From assembly GCF_011682175.1 (NCBI RefSeq), contig NZ_WHJG01000053.1:1-43583 (forward strand): a stretch of DNA of 43,583 nt. The letters run 5' to 3'. Made by a program: the position numbers and the translations under genes. A model generated the notes under the pieces. It was not told the DNA's origin and did not search any database. It saw nothing but the letters and a program-made list of their open reading frames with translations. This DNA is from Massilia frigida. Lineage in GTDB: Bacteria; Pseudomonadota; Gammaproteobacteria; Burkholderiales; Burkholderiaceae_D. Below, piece after piece: positions 3 through 12,329 of the stretch (within the stretch, counting starts at the first letter, position 1; each line of letters opens with the position of its first letter).

Positions 3-1565
3 CTCACCCCCACCACCACCCCCCCCCACCCCACACCCCCGTCCCCCCCACCCCCACCCCCCCACGCGCCCCCGCCAACGCCGACGCCAACACCAACGCC
101 GACGCCAACACCGACGCCGACACCGACACCTGTCCCAACGCCGACGCCTGTCCCAACGCCGACGCCAGTGCCGACCCCAACCCCGGTGCCGACACCTGTA
201 CCAACGCCGGTTCCAACACCCGTGCCGACACCTGTACCGACTCCGGTACCGACACCGGTACCAACGCCTGTTCCTACGCCGGTGCCGACACCCGTCCCTG
301 TGCCGACCCCCGTCCCGACGCCGGTGCCAACACCGGTGCCGGTGCCAACACCGGTCCCAGTGCCCACTCCCGTCCCCGTGCCGACACCGGTTCCAACGCC
401 CGTCCCGACGCCACCGCTGCCGCCAATCGTGCAGCCACCGGCCAACACCGCCATCTCGGCCATCGTGGCCACCGGGAATTCGTCCGGGGGCGGCGCAGCG
501 CGCGTATTCGACACCCTGATCGCCAACAGCTCCGGCGGCGACATGGGCCAGGTCATCACCGCTCTGGGCAAGCTGTCGACCGCGAAAGAAGTGTCCGATG
601 CCGTCGGCCAGACCATCCCGCTGGCGGCCGGTGGCACTGCCGCCGCCATCGCCAGTACCATGAACCTGACCGACCGCGTGGTGCAAGCGCGCATCGAAGC
701 CAATCGCGGCCTCTCGGCCGGCGACAGCTACGGCAACGAGCGCGCGCTGTGGGCCAAGCCGTTCGGCGCCTGGGCGCGCCAGAGCGACCGCGACGGCACG
801 GCCGGCTACCAGGCCAATAGCGGCGGCCTGATCGTCGGGGCGGACGGCGTTGTCAGCAGCGCCGACCGGGTCGGCTTCGCCGTGACCTATGCCAAGACCA
901 AGCTGGACGGCAACGGCGCGAGCCCGCAGTCGGCCGATATCGACCTGCTGCAACTGATGACCTACGGCAGCCACAACCTGGACGCCGACACCGACATCAG
1001 CTGGCAGCTCGACATGGGCACCAACAAGACCGAGGGCCGGCGGCTCATCAGCTTCGGCGGCCTGACGCGCACGGCCAACAGCGATTATCGCGGCACCAGC
1101 CTGCATGTCGCCGGCGGCCTCGCCCGCGTGCTGCGGCTCAGCGAGCAAACCAACATGACGCCATCGATGCGCCTGGACTACACCACCGTCAAGAACAAGG
1201 CCTACGCTGAAACCGGCGCCGGCGCCCTGAGCTTGCTGGTCAATAGCCAGCGCGCCAAGCAGTTCATCCTGTACGGCGACGTCAAGTTCAATCATTCGCC
1301 GTCGACGCAATTGACGTTCTCGGGCAACTTTGGGTTCGGCTACGATTTCCTGGCCGAGCAGACTGCGGTGGTGGCCACCTTTGCCGGTGGCGGACCGGCG
1401 TTCACCACCAGCGGCATCGATCCCAAGCCGCTGTTTGCGCGCGCCGGCGCCGGTGTGACGCTGCTACGGACCGGCAGCACCGAACTGACGGCGCGCTACG
1501 ACGCGGAAGCGCATCGCGGTTTCCGGGCCCAAAGCATGTCGCTCAAACTGCGCAAGCAGTTCTGA
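3..1565 (+). CDS. Autotransporter, C-terminal part (Pro-Thr repeat linker plus beta-barrel), 5' partial
   Basis: The frame is open from the window edge, so the true start lies upstream. The first ~140 codons are a PT/PV repeat (PTPVPTP units), a stiff extended linker common in surface proteins. About 100 residues of spacer follow, including the segment [17 protein letters not shown], then a ~260-residue domain with alternating polar and hydrophobic strands ([35 protein letters not shown]) that ends in SLKLRKQF. A terminal Phe and this strand pattern are typical of type V secretion (autotransporter) barrels, which insert in the outer membrane via BAM and export an N-terminal passenger. The passenger is not visible, so its function is unknown. 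The ligase gene follows 31 bp later on the same strand. The barrel assignment is confident; the repeat sequence near the edge may contain errors. Confidence 0.8.
60..417 (+). repeat. Pro-Thr coding repeat (6-bp and 12-bp units)
   Basis: Degenerate tandem units of the form ccgacg/ccaaca/ccggtg encode PT and PV dipeptides for over 110 codons. Third positions vary between units while the dipeptide is kept, which suggests selection on the protein. Upstream of about position 60 the pattern dissolves into long C runs. Confidence 0.85.
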
Positions 1566-3873: not shown

Positions 3874-5060
3874 CGCGCGCGTGCCCGCTCGGCCGACAGG
3901 TCGGCCGCCGCGAGCGCGTAACGCGCCACGGCCTGCTGGTCCAGCGTGACGCCGAAGCCGGGGCCGGGCGGCAGGCGGGCCTGGCCATCCCGGATGTCGA
4001 TGGTTTCGTTGATGATGTCGCCGACGAAGCGTTCGAGCGCGGAACCATAGCCGACGAACTCGCCGACAGCGGGATGGGCGGCGGCAAAGTGCAGCAGGGC
4101 CGCCGTGCCCACGCCCAGGGTATGTTTCGAGCCCAGGTTGCACTGCAAGCCACCAGCGTCGGCGATCGCCACGATGGCCGAGGAAGCGCGCAAGCCGCCG
4201 GACTTCGCCAGCTTGACCGTGATGATGTCGGCCGCGCGCGCACGCACCACGCGCATGGCGTCGGCCGGGCTCAATACGCTTTCGTCGGCCGCGATGGGCG
4301 CATGCGCGCGCTCGGTGATCAGCTGCATGCCCTCGATATCCCACCAGGCGCACGGCTGCTCGATGCATTCGAGTTCGCACTCCTGCAAGGCGGCATCGAC
4401 GGCCAGCGTCGCCTTGCAGTGCCAGGCCTGGTTGGGATCGATCTCGATGCGCGCGCTGGCGCCCACGGCGCGCTGCACCGCGCGCGCCATGCGGATATCG
4501 TGGCGCCAGTCGGCGCTGCCCTTCAGGGTGAGCAGGCGGTAGCCCATCTCGGCCAACGCGCAGGCCGACCGCACCGCCGCGCCTTCGTCCGGCATCGCCA
4601 TGCTGCGCGAGAGGGCAAAGCGTTCGCGCGTTGCGCCGCCGAGCAGGTCGGCCACGGACATGCCGAGGTGGCGCGCCTTCAGGTCGTGCAGCGCCAGGTC
4701 AATGGCGCACAGGGAAGTGGGAAAGGCGTGGCGTTCCGACGACAAGCCCGCCAGTGTCTGCAAGATGGTGACGATGCGCGCGCCATCCTCGCCCAGCAGC
4801 AGCGGGCCGCTGACCTCGGCGAGGCGGCGGAACACGGAGTCGGCGCTTTCGCCGTCGCGCGCGGGGAAAATGATCGAGGCCTCGCCCAGGCCCACGCTGC
4901 CGTCGAGCGCGGTCAGGCGCAGCAGCACCTTCTCGCCCACCTCCAAGCGGCCGCGCGACGATTGCATCGGCGCGATATACGGCACGCGCACCTTCCACAC
5001 TTGCACCCGCACGATCGTCAGCGGCGCGTCACGCGCACTTCCAGGAGAAAAATCAGCCAT
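3870..5060 (-). CDS. Enolase-superfamily enzyme (dipeptide epimerase / muconate cycloisomerase subgroup)
   Basis: Numbering from the ATG at 5060, the 396-residue protein shows the full active-site set of the muconate-lactonizing-enzyme subgroup: catalytic Lys180 (LLTLKGSAD), metal ligands Asp208 (EIDPNQAW), Glu234 (ECIEQPCAW) and Asp259 (IAADES), and the second catalytic Lys283 (TVKLAKSGG). The first Lys of the usual KxK pair is Thr178. These enzymes abstract a proton alpha to a carboxylate on Mg2+; in bacteria they are often L-Ala-D/L-Glu or other dipeptide epimerases, but the substrate cannot be fixed by eye. An alternative in-frame ATG lies at 5090; neither start has a strong ribosome site. 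The gene overlaps the methyltransferase by 4 bp. Confidence 0.8.
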   Translation of the reverse strand: MADFSPGSARDAPLTIVRVQVWKVRVPYIAPMQSSRGRLEVGEKVLLRLTALDGSVGLGEASIIFPARDGESADSVFRRLAEVSGPLLLGEDGARIVTILQTLAGLSSERHAFPTSLCAIDLALHDLKARHLGMSVADLLGGATRERFALSRSMAMPDEGAAVRSACALAEMGYRLLTLKGSADWRHDIRMARAVQRAVGASARIEIDPNQAWHCKATLAVDAALQECELECIEQPCAWWDIEGMQLITERAHAPIAADESVLSPADAMRVVRARAADIITVKLAKSGGLRASSAIVAIADAGGLQCNLGSKHTLGVGTAALLHFAAAHPAVGEFVGYGSALERFVGDIINETIDIRDGQARLPPGPGFGVTLDQQAVARYALAAADLSAERARAR

Positions 5061-5203
5061 GAGCACATCACGCCAGTAAGGTCGGGCCATCGGACATCCG
5101 CTGCGCCGGCACGTCGTGCGGGCCGGCACAGGACTTTTGCAGCGCCGGTCGCGGGACCGGCGCACGGGCTATTGTACTGTCAACCCGGGCACTGCGGAGC
5201 GGC

Positions 5204-6040
5204 TCAGATTCCGCTGGCCATCAAGCCTTCGGTATGGCCCGACCAGATGTTCCCGCTGCGCAGGAAGGGCTCGGTTTTCATCAGCGAAAACCGCAAGCCG
5301 ACTTCGTCCCAGCCGTAGCGGTCCACTTCCACCCGCTCGCGCTCGACCCGCACCACGTTGAAGGAATTGACCTCACCCCGGCCGCGCGTCGAGGTCGCGG
5401 TGCCCGCCTGCACCACCAGCGCCGCGTACTCGCTCATCTGGTAACGCTCCGAAGTGTTGCCGGCATGGCTGGTATGCATATGCCCCGACAACAGCAAGTC
5501 CACCCCGCAATCGGCAAACGCCTTCATCGCCATCGGCGCGCGGTCGACCAGGTCGTCGTCATCCGCGCTCATGGGCAGGTCGAACGGATGATGGGTCACG
5601 ATGATGCGCGTGATGGCCGGGTCCAGCCCGTCGAGCTGCTTGCGGATCATGGCCACCTGTTCGTCATTGACCCGGCCATCCTTGAAGGTCAGCGAGCGCG
5701 CGGTGTTCACCCCCAGCACGGCGATTTCTTCATCCACGTAGATCGGATCGAGGTCGTCGGTGATGTAGCGCTTGTAGCGCGTCAAGGGCTGCAAAAAGCG
5801 CCGGAACACGTTGTACAGCGAAATATCGTGATTGCCCGGCACGATGATCTGCGGACCCGGCAGGGTGTCGAGCCAGGCCTTGGCCGCCTCGAATTCCTCG
5901 CTCTTGGCGCGCTGGGTCAGGTCGCCCGACACCACCACCACGTCCGGCGCGATGCGTTCGACCAGTTCGCGCAGCGGCGCCAGCAGTTTTTCGTCGACCC
6001 GGCCGAAATGCAGGTCTGAAAGATGAACCAAAGTACGCAT
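5204..6040 (-). CDS. Calcineurin-like metallophosphoesterase (cyclic nucleotide phosphodiesterase-like)
   Basis: All five metal-site blocks of the family are present in order: DLHFG (Asp9, His11), SGDLTQ (Asp40), PGNHD (Asn70-His71), VTHHPFD and LSGHMH. At 278 residues, with the N-terminus starting directly in the first strand, this is a stand-alone cytoplasmic enzyme hydrolysing phosphodiesters or phosphomonoesters with two metals. It resembles CpdA-type proteins, but cAMP as substrate is not proven. GAGGAG lies 6 bases before the ATG and overlaps the end of the lipid kinase gene, so the two are cotranscribed and probably coupled. With PAP2 and the lipid kinase it forms a phosphate-ester set. 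Confidence 0.85.
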   Translation of the reverse strand: MRTLVHLSDLHFGRVDEKLLAPLRELVERIAPDVVVVSGDLTQRAKSEEFEAAKAWLDTLPGPQIIVPGNHDISLYNVFRRFLQPLTRYKRYITDDLDPIYVDEEIAVLGVNTARSLTFKDGRVNDEQVAMIRKQLDGLDPAITRIIVTHHPFDLPMSADDDDLVDRAPMAMKAFADCGVDLLLSGHMHTSHAGNTSERYQMSEYAALVVQAGTATSTRGRGEVNSFNVVRVERERVEVDRYGWDEVGLRFSLMKTEPFLRSGNIWSGHTEGLMASGI

Positions 6041-6049
6041 GCTAACTCC

Positions 6050-6940
6050 TCAAGTTGGGACGACGACCGTCAGCGCGGCCGGGCGGATCCGGTAGCGCAG
6101 CGGCGTCGTCATGACGCTCACTTCGCCATCCGTGGCCACGCGCAGGCGCTTGTGGCGGGTGGCGATTTCCATGTCTTCCACGGCAAGCACGTCGAAATCG
6201 CGTTCCTGCGCCAGGCTGCCCCACAGGGCGCTCCAGCCCAGCCGCAGCAATCCCAGGCGGCCGGGACGCTGCGCCACGTACAGGCTCAGCTTGCCGCCAT
6301 CGAGGCGCTGGCGCTCGCCCACGCTCAAGCCCTGCATCGTGTATTCGTTATTGCCGATGAAGACGAACGGTGTGCGCCGCGCATGTTCCTGCTCGCCCAC
6401 CGTCAGGCGCAGGCTGAGAAAGGGATAGCGGCGCAGCGCCGTCAAGGTGGCCCAGCCGGCCGCCAGCCACTTGCCGCGCCCGAGCCGGCGCTGCTGCTTT
6501 TCGCGGTCGCGCACGATGTCCGGATACAGGCCGAGGCTAGAATTGTTGAGGAAAATCGTGCCGTTCACCTCGCCCACATCGACCTGGGTGCGACGGCCCT
6601 GGGCCACGTTGCGGATCGCCTCGTCCAGCGCCAGCGGAATGCCGAGGTCCTTGGCGAAATGGTTCAGGGTGCCCATCGGCAGCACGCCGAAGGCCACCTC
6701 GCTGCCGACCAGCTGCGAAGCGACCGCATTGATGGTGCCGTCGCCGCCGCCGGCCACCACGATCTGCTTGCCGCTGGCGCGCGCCGCGCGGGCGGCCTCG
6801 ATCAACTCGCTGCCGCCGCGCGCCAGGGTCACGTGCGCGTCCAGGCCGTGGGCGGCGAACTTGGCGCGCAGCTCGGCGGCGCGCTGGTCGTCGTGGCCGC
6901 TGCCGGCACTGCCGTTGATGATGACTGCGATCGGGGTCAG
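6050..6940 (-). CDS. Diacylglycerol kinase-family lipid kinase (DagK/YegS-like)
   Basis: The protein begins LTPIAVIINGSAGSG and carries VVAGGGDGTINAVAS, the ATP-binding GGDGT signature of the DAGK catalytic domain, then FGVLPMGTLNHFAKDLGIP, typical of bacterial lipid kinases. The C-terminal part (FLNNSSLGLYPDIV, FVFIGNNEY) matches the second half of the fold. It likely phosphorylates diacylglycerol, ceramide or a sphingoid base at the inner membrane. The chosen start at 6940 is a CTG 7 bases after GAGGAG; an ATC lies one codon before it. Canonical in-frame GTG codons exist only inside the upstream PAP2 gene. With this start it has 296 residues, normal for the family. It sits between PAP2 and the metallophosphoesterase. 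Confidence 0.82.
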   Translation of the reverse strand: MTPIAVIINGSAGSGHDDQRAAELRAKFAAHGLDAHVTLARGGSELIEAARAARASGKQIVVAGGGDGTINAVASQLVGSEVAFGVLPMGTLNHFAKDLGIPLALDEAIRNVAQGRRTQVDVGEVNGTIFLNNSSLGLYPDIVRDREKQQRRLGRGKWLAAGWATLTALRRYPFLSLRLTVGEQEHARRTPFVFIGNNEYTMQGLSVGERQRLDGGKLSLYVAQRPGRLGLLRLGWSALWGSLAQERDFDVLAVEDMEIATRHKRLRVATDGEVSVMTTPLRYRIRPAALTVVVPT

Positions 6941-6981
6941 GATGAAGCTCCTCGGGATTGGTTCAGGGTTGGGGAAATGCG

Positions 6982-7731
6982 CTATTCGGTGATGCGCGCC
7001 GCGCGCTGGCGGCGCAGGGTCGAGCACGAGGTGATGCACACCGCCAGCCAGCCGCAGCCTTCGACCATGGCCGCCAGCACGTCGCTCAGGTAATGGGCGC
7101 CGAGATAGACCCGGCTCAGGGCCACCAGCGCGACCATGGCACAGGCGCCCAGCACCACCAGCAGGCGCACGCGCCAGCGCGGCAGCACGCACACCAGATA
7201 AGCCGCCAGCAAGCCGTAGAACACGGTCGCGCCCAGGGTATGGCCGCTGGGGAAGCTGTAGGTGGACAAGGTCAGCAGCGGCTCGTCGAAGCTCGGCCGC
7301 GCGCGCTGGAAGATATATTTGAGCATGACGTTGAGCAGCTGGCCGCCCGGCACCGCCAGCACCAGGCAGATCAGCCAGTAGCGCGCTTTGTTGAAATAAA
7401 AATAGAGGCCCAGCGCGCTCGCCATCAGCGACACGCCCAGCACGTCGTGGGTGTTGGTGATGAACAGCATGGGGCCGGTCCAGGCGCTGTTCTTGTGTCC
7501 GTGGAACCAGTTGGCCAGGAAGGCGTCAAGTACGGTGATGTCATCATGCGAGACGACATCGGCCGCCAGGTTGCCGAACAGTGCGGCGGCCAGCATCATC
7601 AGCACGGCGCCGATGGTGACGTGCAGGCCGAGCTCGCCTTCGGGACTGAGGCGGGCGGCGACGAAGCTGCGCACGCGGGGATGGAAAGGGATCACGGTTG
7701 GACGATGGGCAACGGCCGGCACCAGCGGCAC
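6982..7731 (-). CDS. PAP2-family membrane phosphatase
   Basis: The 249-residue protein has about six hydrophobic segments and the three-part type 2 phosphatidic acid phosphatase signature: KYIFQRARPS (KX6RP), YSFPSGH, and SRVYLGAHYLSD (SRX5HX3D). The catalytic His of the third block and the His of PSGH are intact. Such enzymes dephosphorylate phosphatidate, undecaprenyl pyrophosphate or lipid phosphates on the periplasmic face. The gene lies about 40 bp upstream of a lipid kinase, so the pair could interconvert diacylglycerol and phosphatidate (inference). Confidence 0.85.
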   Translation of the reverse strand: MPLVPAVAHRPTVIPFHPRVRSFVAARLSPEGELGLHVTIGAVLMMLAAALFGNLAADVVSHDDITVLDAFLANWFHGHKNSAWTGPMLFITNTHDVLGVSLMASALGLYFYFNKARYWLICLVLAVPGGQLLNVMLKYIFQRARPSFDEPLLTLSTYSFPSGHTLGATVFYGLLAAYLVCVLPRWRVRLLVVLGACAMVALVALSRVYLGAHYLSDVLAAMVEGCGWLAVCITSCSTLRRQRAARITE

Positions 7732-7806
7732 GGCAACGTTTGCAATCGTACACGAGGCGCCACCCTTTGCAGCGCACAGACCGCCAGGAAGCTGCCCCGC
7801 CCGGCG

Positions 7807-8172
7807 CTATTCGAGGGTGTTGACCAGCTCCAGCAGCGCGGCGTGATCGAGCGGCTTGTTCATGAACGCGGTCGCGCCCTGGCGCAGCGCCCAGATGCGG
7901 TCCGAATCCATATCCTTGCTGGTGAGCAGGATGACCGGGATATGCCAGGTGGTTTCATCGCTGGTGATGGCGCGCGTGGCCTGGAAACCGTTCAGGTTGG
8001 GCATGACCACATCCATGATGATCAGGTCTGGCAGCTCGCTGCGCGCCATCGCCACCGCTTCCACGCCGTCGGTGGCGAGGATCACGCGGTGCCCGTGGGC
8101 CAGCAGCAGTTCGGAGACGATCAGGCGCTGCACCAGCGAATCGTCGACGACGAGGATTTTTTGACTAGCCAT
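7807..8172 (-). CDS. Single-domain response regulator (CheY/PilH-like)
   Basis: The 121-residue protein is a lone receiver domain: acidic pair Asp10-Asp11 (ILVVDDS), phosphoacceptor Asp54 (LIIMDVVMP), Thr84 (ILLTSKD) and Lys106 (FMNKPLD). With no output domain it must act by protein contact, as in chemotaxis or twitching-motility relays. No histidine kinase is adjacent; the nearest neighbour, 12 bp upstream, encodes an unknown 106-residue protein. A 75-bp gap separates it from the PAP2 gene. Confidence 0.85.
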   Translation of the reverse strand: MASQKILVVDDSLVQRLIVSELLLAHGHRVILATDGVEAVAMARSELPDLIIMDVVMPNLNGFQATRAITSDETTWHIPVILLTSKDMDSDRIWALRQGATAFMNKPLDHAALLELVNTLE

Positions 8173-8184
8173 GACAAATCGATT

Positions 8185-8505
8185 TCAATGGGCGGAGGGG
8201 GAAGGCGCCACCTCCTCCGCTACTTTACGTTCGGGACAATAGCGCCAGTAAAAGGCATCGGGACGCAGGCCGAATTCTTTCTGCAACTCCTGGCAGACGA
8301 TGGTTTCGGCCAGGTACAGTGCCTTCAGGTTGGTGGTCCGGCTGACCGTGACGTACACGCGCAAGGTCTTGGTCGAACTGGAGTTATGCAGTTCGAGGGC
8401 GGTGACATCGAGTTCCATGCTCCGCAACTTGTTTCTGACGTAGCGCGCCACGTCTTTCCGCACCGTGTTGTACAGCGCGGAATTGACCGCCTTTGGGTCA
8501 GGCAT
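8185..8505 (-). CDS. Small hypothetical protein cotranscribed with a response regulator
   Basis: I do not recognise this 106-residue protein. It has a basic, helical N-terminal half (NTVRKDVARYVRNKLRS), a beta strand ending in TLRVYVTVSRTT, a helix ALYLAETIVCQELQKEF and a polar tail. No signal peptide or membrane segment is visible. The start at 8505 (MPDPKAV) is preferred over a frame extension of 20 residues whose composition looks non-coding. The 12-bp gap to the receiver gene suggests that they work together. It is divergent from the PEP-CTERM operon across about 390 bp. Confidence 0.6.
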   Translation of the reverse strand: MPDPKAVNSALYNTVRKDVARYVRNKLRSMELDVTALELHNSSSTKTLRVYVTVSRTTNLKALYLAETIVCQELQKEFGLRPDAFYWRYCPERKVAEEVAPSPSAH

Positions 8506-8899
8506 GAATAGAACCCCAATCAATGAACGAGCGCCACAGGCTCCCGCGGGCACTGCTGACGGCACACAAAACCGGTTTTACCTGGTCCACCGGGCATGGG
8601 CGTAACAATCAACATGATACGTCAGATCATATTGCGTAACAGCCAGCTTGGGCGCAGTATCGCCGCGACTTGCACAGTAGTCAATCAAATTGTTGCTGTG
8701 CGCCAAATATTACACCTCGCGCAGCCCAACCAGCGGCTTGTTGAGCGAACGCAGATGCCGCAGTCAAGCCGCGTCAAACGCCGGCATGAGGCGGGTAGCG
8801 CAAGGTGGGCGGATGGAGATGAATCAAACCCGGCGCTGGAAGCTTCTTACAAAATCGGCAAAACAGCAGCGCCCCCATCCCTTCCCGCCGGAGAAACCT
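8506..8899. promoter_or_regulatory. Divergent intergenic region with a candidate operator
   Basis: No gene is supported between the divergent starts at 8505 and 8900. Positions 8614-8630 hold the palindrome ATGAT-N7-ATCAT. It is flanked by the direct repeat GCGTAAC at 8600-8606 and 8634-8640, 34 bp apart. This arrangement could bind a dimeric regulator serving one or both operons, but no clear -35/-10 pair was found. Confidence 0.35.
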
Positions 8900-9436
8900 G
8901 TGCGATTGAACCGATTAGCCACCCTCCTCGCCGCGCTGACCGTGTTCTGGTCCGCGCCCGCACCAGCGTCGCTGCTGTCAATCACGCCCGACGTCCGCAG
9001 CGTCACCCTGGCACCCGGAGCGGCCTGGGATGCCACGGGCACCATCACCAACCTGAGCGGCTTCGACCTGCTCAGCACGGAGATATTCCTTGAGTTCAGC
9101 GCTTACCCGCATGCCACGCTGGCGCCGTACCAGCGCCTGGGCGGGGTTGAATTTACCATTGGCGACCGGACGATCTCGCGCTTGACCGAACTGTTCCACG
9201 TTGACATCGCGCCCGACGCCGCGCGCGGCCTGGCCTGGTCCATGGATGTATTCGCGGCCGATGTGCGTGGCAATTTCAGCGACGTCACCACCTATTCCTT
9301 CTATATCGATGGCCCTGCGGTCGCGGTGCCGGAGCCGTCCACGCTGCCGCTGCTGGCCGCCGGATTCATCGCACTGCTGGCCGGCGCCGGCCTGGCGCGG
9401 CCGCGCACTGTCCATCCCGGCCGCTCAGGAGGCTGA
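8900..9436 (+). CDS. PEP-CTERM sorted extracellular protein
   Basis: The 178-residue product has a Sec signal (MRLNRLATLLAALTVFWSA, then PAPAS), a ~115-residue beta-rich body (ITNLSGFDLL, YSFYIDG), and the C-terminal tripartite tag VPEPSTLPLL, a hydrophobic helix and the basic ARPR. This is the PEP-CTERM signal recognised by exosortase, which cleaves near PEP and releases the protein to the envelope or matrix. No exosortase lies in the window. The GTG start is chosen because GGAG precedes it and it begins the signal peptide; the upstream in-frame sequence lacks such a signal. It is the first gene of a four-gene run. The next ATG follows the stop by one base, with its ribosome site inside this gene. 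Confidence 0.8.
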   Translation: MRLNRLATLLAALTVFWSAPAPASLLSITPDVRSVTLAPGAAWDATGTITNLSGFDLLSTEIFLEFSAYPHATLAPYQRLGGVEFTIGDRTISRLTELFHVDIAPDAARGLAWSMDVFAADVRGNFSDVTTYSFYIDGPAVAVPEPSTLPLLAAGFIALLAGAGLARPRTVHPGRSGG

Positions 9437-9437
9437 C

Positions 9438-10187
9438 ATGGTCAAGCTTGCAGCCGCAACCAAGGTCGTGCTGGGGGAGCCGGGGATTGAACATGTCGAC
9501 GGCCAGGTGTTCCTCAATCTGCACATCATGAACGTGGGCGAGGCGCCGCTCGGCAATCTGCACATCGGCGCGATGACGCTCGGCGGCGCGCAGCGCAGCA
9601 GCCCGCCGGGATTTCCCATCGTGATCGATCTCATCGGCGCCAGTTCCACCGGCCATGTGAGCGCGCGTTTTTCCAGCGAAGCGCTGGCCGTGGGCGGCAA
9701 ATACCTGTTCACGCTCAGCGGGACCTACACGGTTGGCGCTGTCGCACACGGGCTGAGCCTGAACCGCTTCATCCGCCTGCCTGCCGCCACGGCCGCCACG
9801 CTGCCGGGCCTGAAGGCGCGGGTGGCGTCGTCCTCCCGGGGCCATTACTGGAACTACACGCTCTTCAACGACGAGAGCGCCGCCAGCCGCAAGTCGCTCG
9901 CCACCTTTTCCCTGTCGATCGGCGCGCCGGTGGCCGTCACCGGCATCCCCGCCGGCTGGGCGGTGGAAACCGACGGCCAGACCTTTGTGCTGTGGTACGC
10001 CGCCGACGATGCGCCGCCCTACCCGCATCAGCTCGCGCCCGGCCACTCCTTGCCGGGATTTCAATTGATGAGCACCCGAACCCGGTCGGAAGCCAGCCCG
10101 GCCGCGCTGACCTCCTGGAACCACGCCAGCGACGAGGCCGGCCCCGTCGTCACCGACTACGTGATGACGCCGTACCGGCGTGCCTGA
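9438..10187 (+). CDS. Hypothetical beta-rich protein in the PEP-CTERM/PLA2-like operon
   Basis: I do not recognise the family. The 249-residue protein lacks a signal peptide or membrane helix. It appears to consist of two beta-sandwich-like halves: residues ~15-115 (LHIMNVGEAPLG, YLFTLSGTYTVG) and ~130-249 (YWNYTLFNDES, GWAVETDGQTFVLWYA). The second half resembles the body of PEP-CTERM-type proteins without the tag. AGGAGG 6 bases before the ATG is a strong ribosome site and lies within the last codons of the upstream gene, so the two are coupled. Its place between two exported proteins suggests export by an unusual route or a chaperone-like role (inference). Confidence 0.65.
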   Translation: MVKLAAATKVVLGEPGIEHVDGQVFLNLHIMNVGEAPLGNLHIGAMTLGGAQRSSPPGFPIVIDLIGASSTGHVSARFSSEALAVGGKYLFTLSGTYTVGAVAHGLSLNRFIRLPAATAATLPGLKARVASSSRGHYWNYTLFNDESAASRKSLATFSLSIGAPVAVTGIPAGWAVETDGQTFVLWYAADDAPPYPHQLAPGHSLPGFQLMSTRTRSEASPAALTSWNHASDEAGPVVTDYVMTPYRRA

Positions 10188-10221: not shown

Positions 10222-11214
10222 ATGGATGCCACTCGTTCGGCCATGTCGGCACTGGCGCATGCGCTGCGGCGCTGGACGCGCGCCGCCACGCCGGCCAGCC
10301 CGGCCGGGGATGACACCGGCTTCGACCATTTTGCGCGATCGCTGGGCAGCCAGGTCGGGCGCCGTGACGTGATGAAAGTGGCGCTGTTCGGGACGGTCTC
10401 GGCGCTGCTCGGCAGCGTCGGCGTGAAGCAGGCATGGGCCGCGGCCAACTGCCTGTGCGGCCGCCAGCTGTACGACGTGGCGACCCAATGCTGCACGCCG
10501 GCCGGGGTGCGCCCCAAGCATCCGCTGGCGGACCTGGCGGCCTGCCCCGAGCGGGTCGCTCACCCCGGCTACGTCTGCCGTCCGAACGGCTGCGGCGCCG
10601 CCGGCGGACAATCCTTCCCCGCCGCGTTCGGCGCGGCGCGCTTTGGCGCCTGTTGCGACGGCCACGACTGCTGTTGGGGCAACTGCAACAGCAGCCGGCC
10701 ACGCTGCGACGGCGATTTCGCCGGCTGCCTGCGCGACGCCTGCGATGCCGCTTATCCGCCGCTCCTCAATGCGCTCGGCCTGGACAGCAACCGGATCCGG
10801 CGTTCCTCGTGCCGCGCCACGGCGCGCGCTTACTTTGACGGCGTCGAGAGCGCCACCTGGGGCACGCCGGCTTACGTCGCGGCGCAGCAGGCGGCCTGCG
10901 ACTGCTGCGGCGCGCAAACCTGCAAGACCTGCCCCGGCGGCAGCTGCGAGGCCTTGCCTAGCTGCGAGGATCCCGGCTGCGTATGCTTCCAGACCATCGA
11001 AGGCACGGGATTTTGCCATCATCCGCAGGTGTGCGCGGGCTTGTCGAGCTGCACGTCCAGCGCCGGCTGCCCTCCCGGATGGGCTTGCGTCAGCGTCACT
11101 TGCTGCGGCAGCAATCCGGTTTGCATCCAGCCCTGCTTCGTCGTTGGCGGCCCCCGCGTGCCGCCCTTTGCCAAGGCGCCGGCGGCGGGACCGAGCACCG
11201 CCCGCAGGCACTGA
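10222..11214 (+). CDS. Tat-exported cysteine-rich protein with group XII-like phospholipase A2 domain
   Basis: The 330-residue protein has a twin-arginine leader: GRRDVMK at 46-52, then a hydrophobic stretch ending AWA near 73. The mature part holds 34 cysteines. Residues ~138-229 contain ACCDGHDCCWGNC (His148-Asp149, the PLA2 catalytic/calcium pair within CCxxHDxC), then CDGDFAGCLRDAC, a helix LLNALGL, and YFDGVES with AYVAAQQAACDCC. This cysteine spacing recalls secreted group XII PLA2 proteins from animals rather than the short Streptomyces type. Residues 231-330 form a second cysteine module. PLA2 enzymes cleave the sn-2 ester of phospholipids. ATG at 10222 follows GGGAG; an earlier ATG at 10201 is less likely. 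The downstream redox protein probably oxidises its cysteines. Confidence 0.75.
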   Translation: MDATRSAMSALAHALRRWTRAATPASPAGDDTGFDHFARSLGSQVGRRDVMKVALFGTVSALLGSVGVKQAWAAANCLCGRQLYDVATQCCTPAGVRPKHPLADLAACPERVAHPGYVCRPNGCGAAGGQSFPAAFGAARFGACCDGHDCCWGNCNSSRPRCDGDFAGCLRDACDAAYPPLLNALGLDSNRIRRSSCRATARAYFDGVESATWGTPAYVAAQQAACDCCGAQTCKTCPGGSCEALPSCEDPGCVCFQTIEGTGFCHHPQVCAGLSSCTSSAGCPPGWACVSVTCCGSNPVCIQPCFVVGGPRVPPFAKAPAAGPSTARRH

Positions 11215-11267: not shown

Positions 11268-12329
11268 ATGGGTATCCTGTTTGTCGTATGCGGCATTACG
11301 GTCGTGCTGGTCATGACCCTGGCCGGCGTGTCCAAGTTCGGCCACGCTGGTGAAACCGCCAGCTCCATGCGCGAGTTCGGCTTGCCCGCGCGCCTGGCGC
11401 AATGGACCGCTCCCGCGTTGCCTGCGGCGGAGCTCGGGATCGCCGCCTGCCTGCTCACGCCCGGCCTGGCATGGGCCGGCGCGCTGGCGGCGACCCTGTT
11501 CATGGCGCTGGTGACCATGCTGGTGACGGCCGCGCTGCTGCAAGACAAACATCCCAGCTGCAACTGCTTCGGACAGGTGCGTGCCGCGCCGGTCAGCTGG
11601 GGCGTTGCCCTGCGCAGCCTGCTGCTGACCCTGTGCGCCGCCTATCTGTTGTGGGACGGGCGCGCACGGCTCGATCACGGGCTGCTGGCCGAAACCGGCA
11701 AGCTGGGCGCGGCCATGCTGGCGTCGCTGGCCGTGGCGTGCATCGTTGTGCTGCAGGGCTGGCTGTCGCTGAACCTGGTGCGCCAGCAAGGGCGGCTGCT
11801 CTTGAAAATCGATAACCTGGAGCTGCGCCTGGCGGCGGCCGGCATTCCGGCAAGCCAGTCCGCGCCACTGACAGGTCCCCTGCCCGGCAGCCCCGCGCCC
11901 GCGTTCAGCGCCGTCACGCTGGCGGAGATGCCGGTCTCCTCGACGGCGCTGCTCGGCGACGGCACACCGACGCTGCTCCTGTTCGTGAGCGCCGACTGCG
12001 CACCGTGCCAGAACCTGCTGGCCGGCCTGCTGGCATGGCGCGCCGCGCATCCGTCCCAGGAGCGGCTGGTGACCGTGACCAGCGGGACAGCCCAGGCCAA
12101 CCGCGACAAGCTCGGTGGCCTGATCGGCGGCGATGCCCTGCTCCAGGAAGAACGCGAAATCAACGCCCTGTTCGGGGTGATGGCGACGCCCAGCGCCTTG
12201 CTGATTGGCGCCGACGGCAGCATCGCCGCACCGATGGCCATCGGCAAGGACCAGATCATGGCGCTGGTCCAGGCCCCGTCCGGGCAGGGCGGCGGCGAGC
12301 GGCGGCGGCCACACATCGCCTATTCCTGA
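11268..12329 (+). CDS. MauE-like membrane protein fused to a thioredoxin-like (MauD/TlpA) domain
   Basis: The N-terminal ~165 residues form four to five membrane helices with the MauE/DoxX-type pair CNCFG (Cys98, Cys100). A short coiled segment (~168-192) leads to a periplasmic thioredoxin fold with the active site DCAPC (Cys244, Cys247) and MATPSALL, giving the cis-Pro at 308. In methylamine dehydrogenase operons MauE and MauD are separate proteins needed to form the disulfides of the cysteine-rich, Tat-exported light chain. Here both are fused in one 353-residue chain. The gene lies 53 bp after a 34-cysteine Tat substrate, with GGAGG before the ATG. The simplest reading is a dedicated disulfide-forming or isomerising enzyme for that neighbour (inference from family and context). 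Confidence 0.82.
   Translation: MGILFVVCGITVVLVMTLAGVSKFGHAGETASSMREFGLPARLAQWTAPALPAAELGIAACLLTPGLAWAGALAATLFMALVTMLVTAALLQDKHPSCNCFGQVRAAPVSWGVALRSLLLTLCAAYLLWDGRARLDHGLLAETGKLGAAMLASLAVACIVVLQGWLSLNLVRQQGRLLLKIDNLELRLAAAGIPASQSAPLTGPLPGSPAPAFSAVTLAEMPVSSTALLGDGTPTLLLFVSADCAPCQNLLAGLLAWRAAHPSQERLVTVTSGTAQANRDKLGGLIGGDALLQEEREINALFGVMATPSALLIGADGSIAAPMAIGKDQIMALVQAPSGQGGGERRRPHIAYS

Follow-up and report, generated by a model that had tools for sequence, protein, structure and literature searches.

How might a bacterium make, oxidize and export a protein that carries 34 cysteines, and what would such a protein do outside the cell? The question is raised by a 43,583-nucleotide stretch of the Massilia frigida genome (contig NZ_WHJG01000053.1, positions 1 to 43,583; hereafter the window), in which four genes on the same strand encode, in order, a PEP-CTERM-like protein, a signal-less immunoglobulin (Ig)-like protein, a Cys-rich protein with a twin-arginine translocation (Tat) leader and a phospholipase A2 (PLA2)-like core, and a fusion of MauE to a thioredoxin-like domain (MauE-Trx). 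We consider it probable, at roughly two chances in three (0.65), that gene 3 encodes an exported, calcium- and His-Asp-dependent enzyme of the PLA2G12 family and that gene 4 encodes its dedicated disulfide catalyst. Family membership, invariant catalytic residues, predicted fold, paired cysteines, operon conservation and redox motifs are supported by computation, and from there we infer enzymatic activity, substrate, direction of the redox relay and final location. Prokaryotic PLA2G12 domains are already in print; what is new is the Tat-exported, Cys-rich architecture and the conserved operon with its fused MauE-Trx. No publication title concerned this protein among the open-access literature matches listed.

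Gene 3 (10222..11214, + strand) runs from an ATG at 10222 to a stop codon ending at 11214 and encodes 330 residues, 34 of them cysteine; the coordinates and the cysteine count agree with those of a preliminary description of the locus. The motifs quoted there are all present (CCDGHDCCWGNC at residues 144-155, CDGDFAGCL at 162-170, YFDGVES at 204-210 and AAQQAACDCC at 220-229), and its numbering of His148 and Asp149 is correct. Its interpretation of the gene, a group XII-like PLA2 core in an exported protein, is supported. Residues 117-230 (10570..10911, + strand) match the Pfam family PF06951 PLA2G12 (43.9 bits, E 3.4e-11; cut-off 34 bits), covering positions 74-178 of the 184 in the model and leaving its N-terminal part unmatched; at E<=1 no other Pfam family was listed. 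It was through this Pfam model alone that the cysteine order was set beside that of animal group XII enzymes. An NCBIfam scan of the protein gave no match, and a sequence search of the PDB with this single protein returned 0 matches.

A protein database search yielded 72 homologues at E<=0.001, all of which were aligned with the window protein (n = 73, none dropped). The calcium loop N122-G123-C124-G125, H148, D149 and D163 are invariant in 73 of 73 sequences, while many neighbouring positions are variable; the conservation of the His148-Asp149 pair among homologues, which the preliminary description had proposed to check, is thus complete. PF06951 is matched by 70/73 members of the alignment at E<=0.01. 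Structure prediction, the other check proposed, gave a PLA2-like rather than an unrelated fold for the core, at high confidence (ten-residue means of the predicted local distance difference test, pLDDT, of 81-98 across the domain), and the four best structural matches of the predicted core are phospholipases A2. Chance similarity can be rejected on the E-value of 3.4e-11 together with the invariant catalytic residues, and on its sequence the core of the gene 3 product is a bacterial PLA2G12-type protein. Compared with PLA2G12A/B, with which it shares the Pfam match over residues 117-230, the calcium loop, the CCxxHD motif and the second Asp, the bacterial protein adds the Tat leader, an N-terminal Cys-rich stretch, a C-terminal module of 15 cysteines and the operon setting.

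The preliminary description had also set the core apart from known bacterial PLA2s, and this part holds less well. The PF06951 match stands, but the family also reads as a relative of the fungal and actinobacterial PLA2s of groups XIII/XIV, because the alignment profile matches 4aup (E 2e-7) and 1faz (E 1.4e-4) and 18/73 alignment members match PF09056 at E<=0.01. Further solved PLA2s were matched at E 0.0016 (8k1w) and 0.013 (7ygk), and in the two profile alignments printed the D of CDxxF and the HD pair each face their counterparts. The group XIII/XIV enzymes resemble the gene 3 product in predicted fold and in His/Asp arrangement; the solved 4aup and 1faz chains, however, have 122-123 residues against 330 in the window protein, which gave no match to PF09056 at E<=1. 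The LGL described as a helix (residues 185-187) belongs instead to a variable loop that connects helix 159-177 with helix 191-209.

Ahead of the core lies the Tat leader (10222..10440, + strand), with a twin-arginine pair at residues 47-48 (GRRDVMK), a moderately hydrophobic stretch at about 50-68 and an AxA-type site, AWA, that ends at residue 73. The arginine pair is kept in 71/73 sequences, the two exceptions being a gap at the site (P0070) and a 490-residue protein of different architecture (P0072), and A71 and A73 are found in >=90% of the alignment. By these leader features and the presence of TatC in the same genome the gene 3 product is a predicted Tat substrate. Behind the core, residues 234-305 (10921..11136, + strand) form a second Cys-rich module of about 75 residues with 15 cysteines, shorter than the roughly 100 residues first estimated. 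Its cysteine columns are kept in 69-72 of 73 sequences; it matches 0 Pfam families at E<=10, and a search of 398 genomes of the phylum returned itself and one weak match (39% over 36 residues) that is broken by a stop.

The cysteines of this protein are very probably disulfide-bonded in pairs, because they tend to be lost jointly and occur in even numbers in the mature part (69/73 sequences). Cys119 and Cys150 are absent together from the same 15/73 sequences, Cys144 and Cys169 from the same 17/73, and Cys151 and Cys162 are both absent from one sequence, which points to 119/150, 144/169 and, from that one sequence, 151/162 as likely bonded pairs. By parsimony on a FastTree tree that was built without the paired columns, the 119/150 pair changed 5 times and the 144/169 pair 2 times.

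Gene 4 (11268..12329, + strand) offers a candidate source of such bonds. Its product joins a MauE membrane domain (PF07291, 78.9 bits against a cut-off of 27) to a thioredoxin-like domain whose thioredoxin-type Pfam matches are all below their cut-offs, and it carries the redox motifs CNC (residues 98-100) and CAPC (244-247) as well as TP (307-308). The CNC, CxPC and TP motifs are invariant in the proteins of all eight operon loci described below. We propose that it acts as the disulfide catalyst of the PLA2 after the model of MauD/MauE and methylamine dehydrogenase, in which MauE and thioredoxin-like domains likewise stand beside a Cys-rich exported protein; here the redox domains are fused and the proposed substrate is a PLA2. 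PMC7794033, citing van der Palen 1997, relates the speculation that MauE assists in forming the disulfides of the methylamine dehydrogenase beta subunit. A methylamine dehydrogenase cluster itself was rejected, there being no such match in the four genes of the operon or in the solute-binding protein gene that follows, while other regions of the genome were not searched for one; against the MauD model TIGR02661, gene 4 scored 19.9 bits where the cut-off is 188.6.

In the proposed mechanism, the PLA2 would be made with its Tat leader, leave the cytoplasm through Tat and owe its rigidity to about 17 disulfide bonds. The MauE-Trx fusion would serve as a dedicated thiol-disulfide catalyst that oxidizes the PLA2, its CNC and CxPC pairs relaying electrons between the membrane and the PLA2 cysteines. 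Once outside the cytoplasm, His148 and Asp163 together with calcium would act on phospholipid, with hydrolysis, outside the cell, of the sn-2 bond in foreign or environmental phospholipid as the likely output. The PEP-CTERM-like and Ig-like proteins probably place, bind or restrain the enzyme, which is the weakest part of the model. If this reading is right, bacteria possess free-standing, exported relatives of the animal-type group XII PLA2 family, which could help to settle the role and origin of the PLA2G12 fold, and the operon is a compact natural test of making and Tat-exporting a protein with some 17 disulfides, one that bears on the face of the membrane at which MauE/MauD-type catalysts work.

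The conservation of the operon fits this proposal. Its four-gene order is recognisable in 8/8 close-clade genomes examined from Massilia, Roseateles, Rubrivivax and Janthinobacterium (the window, L004, L005, L006, L007, L008, L038 and L039; the duplicates L003 and L016 of L004, and L062 of L008, were not counted). Within the genus, the window PLA2 is matched in 5/17 genomes, and gene 2 and a full-length MauE-Trx occur in exactly these five; weaker MauE or thioredoxin matches occur elsewhere in the genus, including two genomes that lack the PLA2. Nine regions were also retrieved through a search for MauE-Trx, eight of which were compared with the operon genes, the ninth (L062) being the L008 locus already included. 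One of them, a relict operon at positions 4981-6761 of L063 (genome G133), encodes a PEP-CTERM-like open reading frame, a gene 2 homologue (45% identity) and a short thioredoxin, with no PLA2 match in the 12-kb stretch; this genome is implied among the 145 family genomes scanned for PF06951, in which only 2 others matched. The thioredoxin has 195 residues, lacks the MauE domain, carries SAPC in place of CAPC and gave no Pfam family at E<=0.01. In this one case the missing Cys-rich substrate coincides with an apparent loss of redox function in the MauE-Trx counterpart. For the remaining seven regions, the matches listed include none to the PLA2, gene 1 or gene 2 with an E-value below 0.1.

Which side of the membrane the catalyst faces can be approached from its sequence. 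A simple scan finds five hydrophobic segments ahead of the thioredoxin domain in 7/8 of the fusions (only three in L008), and five segments would put CNC and CxPC on the same side; in 5/8 the scan also placed a weak additional segment within the thioredoxin domain. With segment bounds set by hand, the side bearing the redox sites holds 8-11 Lys and Arg residues against 1-3 on the other side, in all eight proteins. By the positive-inside rule the charge counts would tentatively place the redox sites at the cytoplasmic face, the side richer in Lys and Arg; MauD is usually assigned a periplasmic site of action. Another MauE/MauD-like pair, encoded elsewhere in this genome, has a similar charge bias. 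A cluster in this genome (L037, positions 4883-9663, on G000:C44) encodes an ATP-grasp peptide maturase-like protein, a Clp-like serine protease, MauE, a MauD-like protein and an ABC transporter; the maturase-like and protease matches are both below their NCBIfam cut-offs, and the gene content suggests a graspetide-like modified-peptide system with its own MauE/MauD.

Several of these observations weigh against the reading of gene 3 as an exported enzyme with its own disulfide catalyst. The best PLA2 found by Foldseek reached only E 0.016, with none at E<=0.001. The cytoplasmic charge bias in 8/8 fusions conflicts with a simple periplasmic catalyst. Such catalysts are not specific to PLA2s either, as MauE/MauD-like proteins also occur in the ATP-grasp peptide-type cluster of the same genome and the search for MauE-Trx found some match, weaker ones included, in 27/294 family genomes. 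Finally, the decay of MauE-Trx where the PLA2 is missing is one case only, and the persistence of gene 2 and the PEP-CTERM-like gene at that locus means that they are not tied to the PLA2 alone.

The Tat leader bears on the same issue. The preliminary description had called such a leader unusual on a heavily disulfide-bonded protein; the leader is indeed present, but the small subunit of methylamine dehydrogenase is both disulfide-rich and a Tat substrate, and a MauE-type partner at the locus would address the paradox. A Tat review records that export of an antibody fragment failed unless disulfides formed in the cytoplasm, and its reference list includes a report of Tat export without prior disulfides (PMC6708511). 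Because both precedents exist, the use of Tat alone does not fix the timing of bond formation. MauE-Trx might even oxidize the PLA2 at the cytoplasmic face before export, and the very reason for using Tat would then be that the enzyme has to fold and be locked by its disulfides while still inside; we regard this version as a long shot. If true, it would be a natural system, dedicated to one substrate, that couples disulfide formation in the cytoplasm to Tat, and it might extend to other MauE/MauD partners.

Other readings turn on the partner genes and on where PLA2G12 domains are found. Gene 2 (9438..10187, + strand; 249 residues, no cysteine, no signal peptide) could encode a cytoplasmic chaperone that crosses the membrane through Tat together with the PLA2, a reading that is unlikely. 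A published precedent lies in the Pseudomonas aeruginosa phospholipase C PlcH, a Tat-exported enzyme with which PlcR2 is co-exported (PMC3601568). The two settings are alike in that a Tat-exported phospholipase is encoded beside a small partner; PlcH, though, is a phospholipase C where the window enzyme is an A2, and gene 2 is likened to PlcR2 by gene setting. Consistent with a chaperone, gene 2 relatives show a signal-like start in 0/17 cases by eye and gene 2 lies directly upstream of the PLA2 in 8/8 operons. Its fold, however, is generic: the AlphaFold2 model has two tandem Ig-like beta-sandwiches at moderate confidence (pLDDT 72.4), and a fold search returned only generic beta-sandwich matches. 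Moreover, genes 1 and 2 appear to keep a role without the PLA2, because both persist in L063, which counts against a pure chaperone or immunity role and weakens the notion that gene 2 exists only for the PLA2.

It is improbable that the PLA2 fold, competent as it looks, serves mainly for binding, as in a structural or lipid-binding surface protein. Much of the protein lies outside the PLA2 core, with a conserved module of 15 cysteines following it, and the operon also encodes Ig-like and PEP-CTERM-like proteins, all of which would suit a binder; a pure binder, though, would be expected to lose some of the His, Asp and calcium-loop residues, which are invariant throughout the alignment amid variable neighbours.

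We likewise hold it improbable that the PLA2 is an interbacterial antimicrobial lipase, a weapon for which one of the upstream proteins is the immunity protein or inhibitor. PLA2G12 domains stand at the C-termini of RHS-type proteins in two loci (L010 and L011), the distribution within the genus is sporadic, and PMC11297309 lists a PLA2G12 domain in an archaeal candidate associated with contractile injection. That candidate is marked there as negative in yeast and was not tested in E. coli. The window protein, on the other hand, has its own Tat leader and no join to an RHS or injection module, and the signal-less gene 2 persists where no PLA2 was found. A phage origin was rejected, as viral contigs gave one pattern-matching stretch and none encoding a relative, and so was a plasmid origin, there being no plasmid match for the PLA2 and one partial match for MauE-Trx (29.8% over 53%).

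At E<=0.001, PF06951 was matched in 2/145 genomes of the family, 2/399 of the order (one below the cut-off) and 1/398 of the phylum, the last being the window's own genome. Among genome contigs, 24 stretches matched a pattern and 8 encode a relative: two from Massilia, one each from Roseateles noduli, a Rubrivivax metagenome-assembled genome (MAG) and Janthinobacterium, and three distant ones from Rubrivivax A210, a planctomycete and a kiritimatiellae MAG. A second, alignment-based protein search, which scored only the best 7997 word-sharing candidates, gave at least 60 proteins; among these, 5 were new and only distantly related, and 4 of the 5 carry a Big_1 domain. The PLA2G12 domains at or near the C-termini of RHS-type proteins (L010, 1451-2941 and 2-1240; L011, to 8354) look like effector tips; one planctomycete domain follows an RHS core domain, and the kiritimatiellae domain forms the end of an open frame of 1,899 residues in which RHS/YD-type repeats can be recognized by eye. 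A short, probably secreted PLA2-like protein (L041, 4672-5361) is encoded in another family of the order; it reaches neither the PF06951 nor the PF09056 cut-off and resembles the two about equally.

Upstream of gene 3, gene 1 (8690..9436, + strand; true start uncertain) encodes a probable secreted protein with a PEP-CTERM-like C-terminus (VPEPSTLPLLAAG), a match that falls below the Pfam cut-off (18.3 against 20.7 bits) and just above that of NCBIfam (17.2 against 16), and the same genome has two exosortase genes. Relatives of gene 1 occur in L004-L008, L038 and L039, the last matching in two frames. One base separates its stop from the ATG of gene 2, which is preceded by AGGAGG. A protein database search with gene 2 gave 14 matches counting itself, and 16/17 of its relatives are free of cysteine. 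A promoter and terminator scan called two promoter-like sites, both on the minus strand. Upstream of the operon, three genes on the minus strand (5204-7731) have a lipid- or phosphate-related look, encoding a calcineurin-like phosphoesterase, a diacylglycerol-kinase-like protein and a PAP2 phosphatase. The host is described as a soil-type bacterium, and the left end of the window (168-1565, + strand) encodes a protein with an autotransporter beta-domain.
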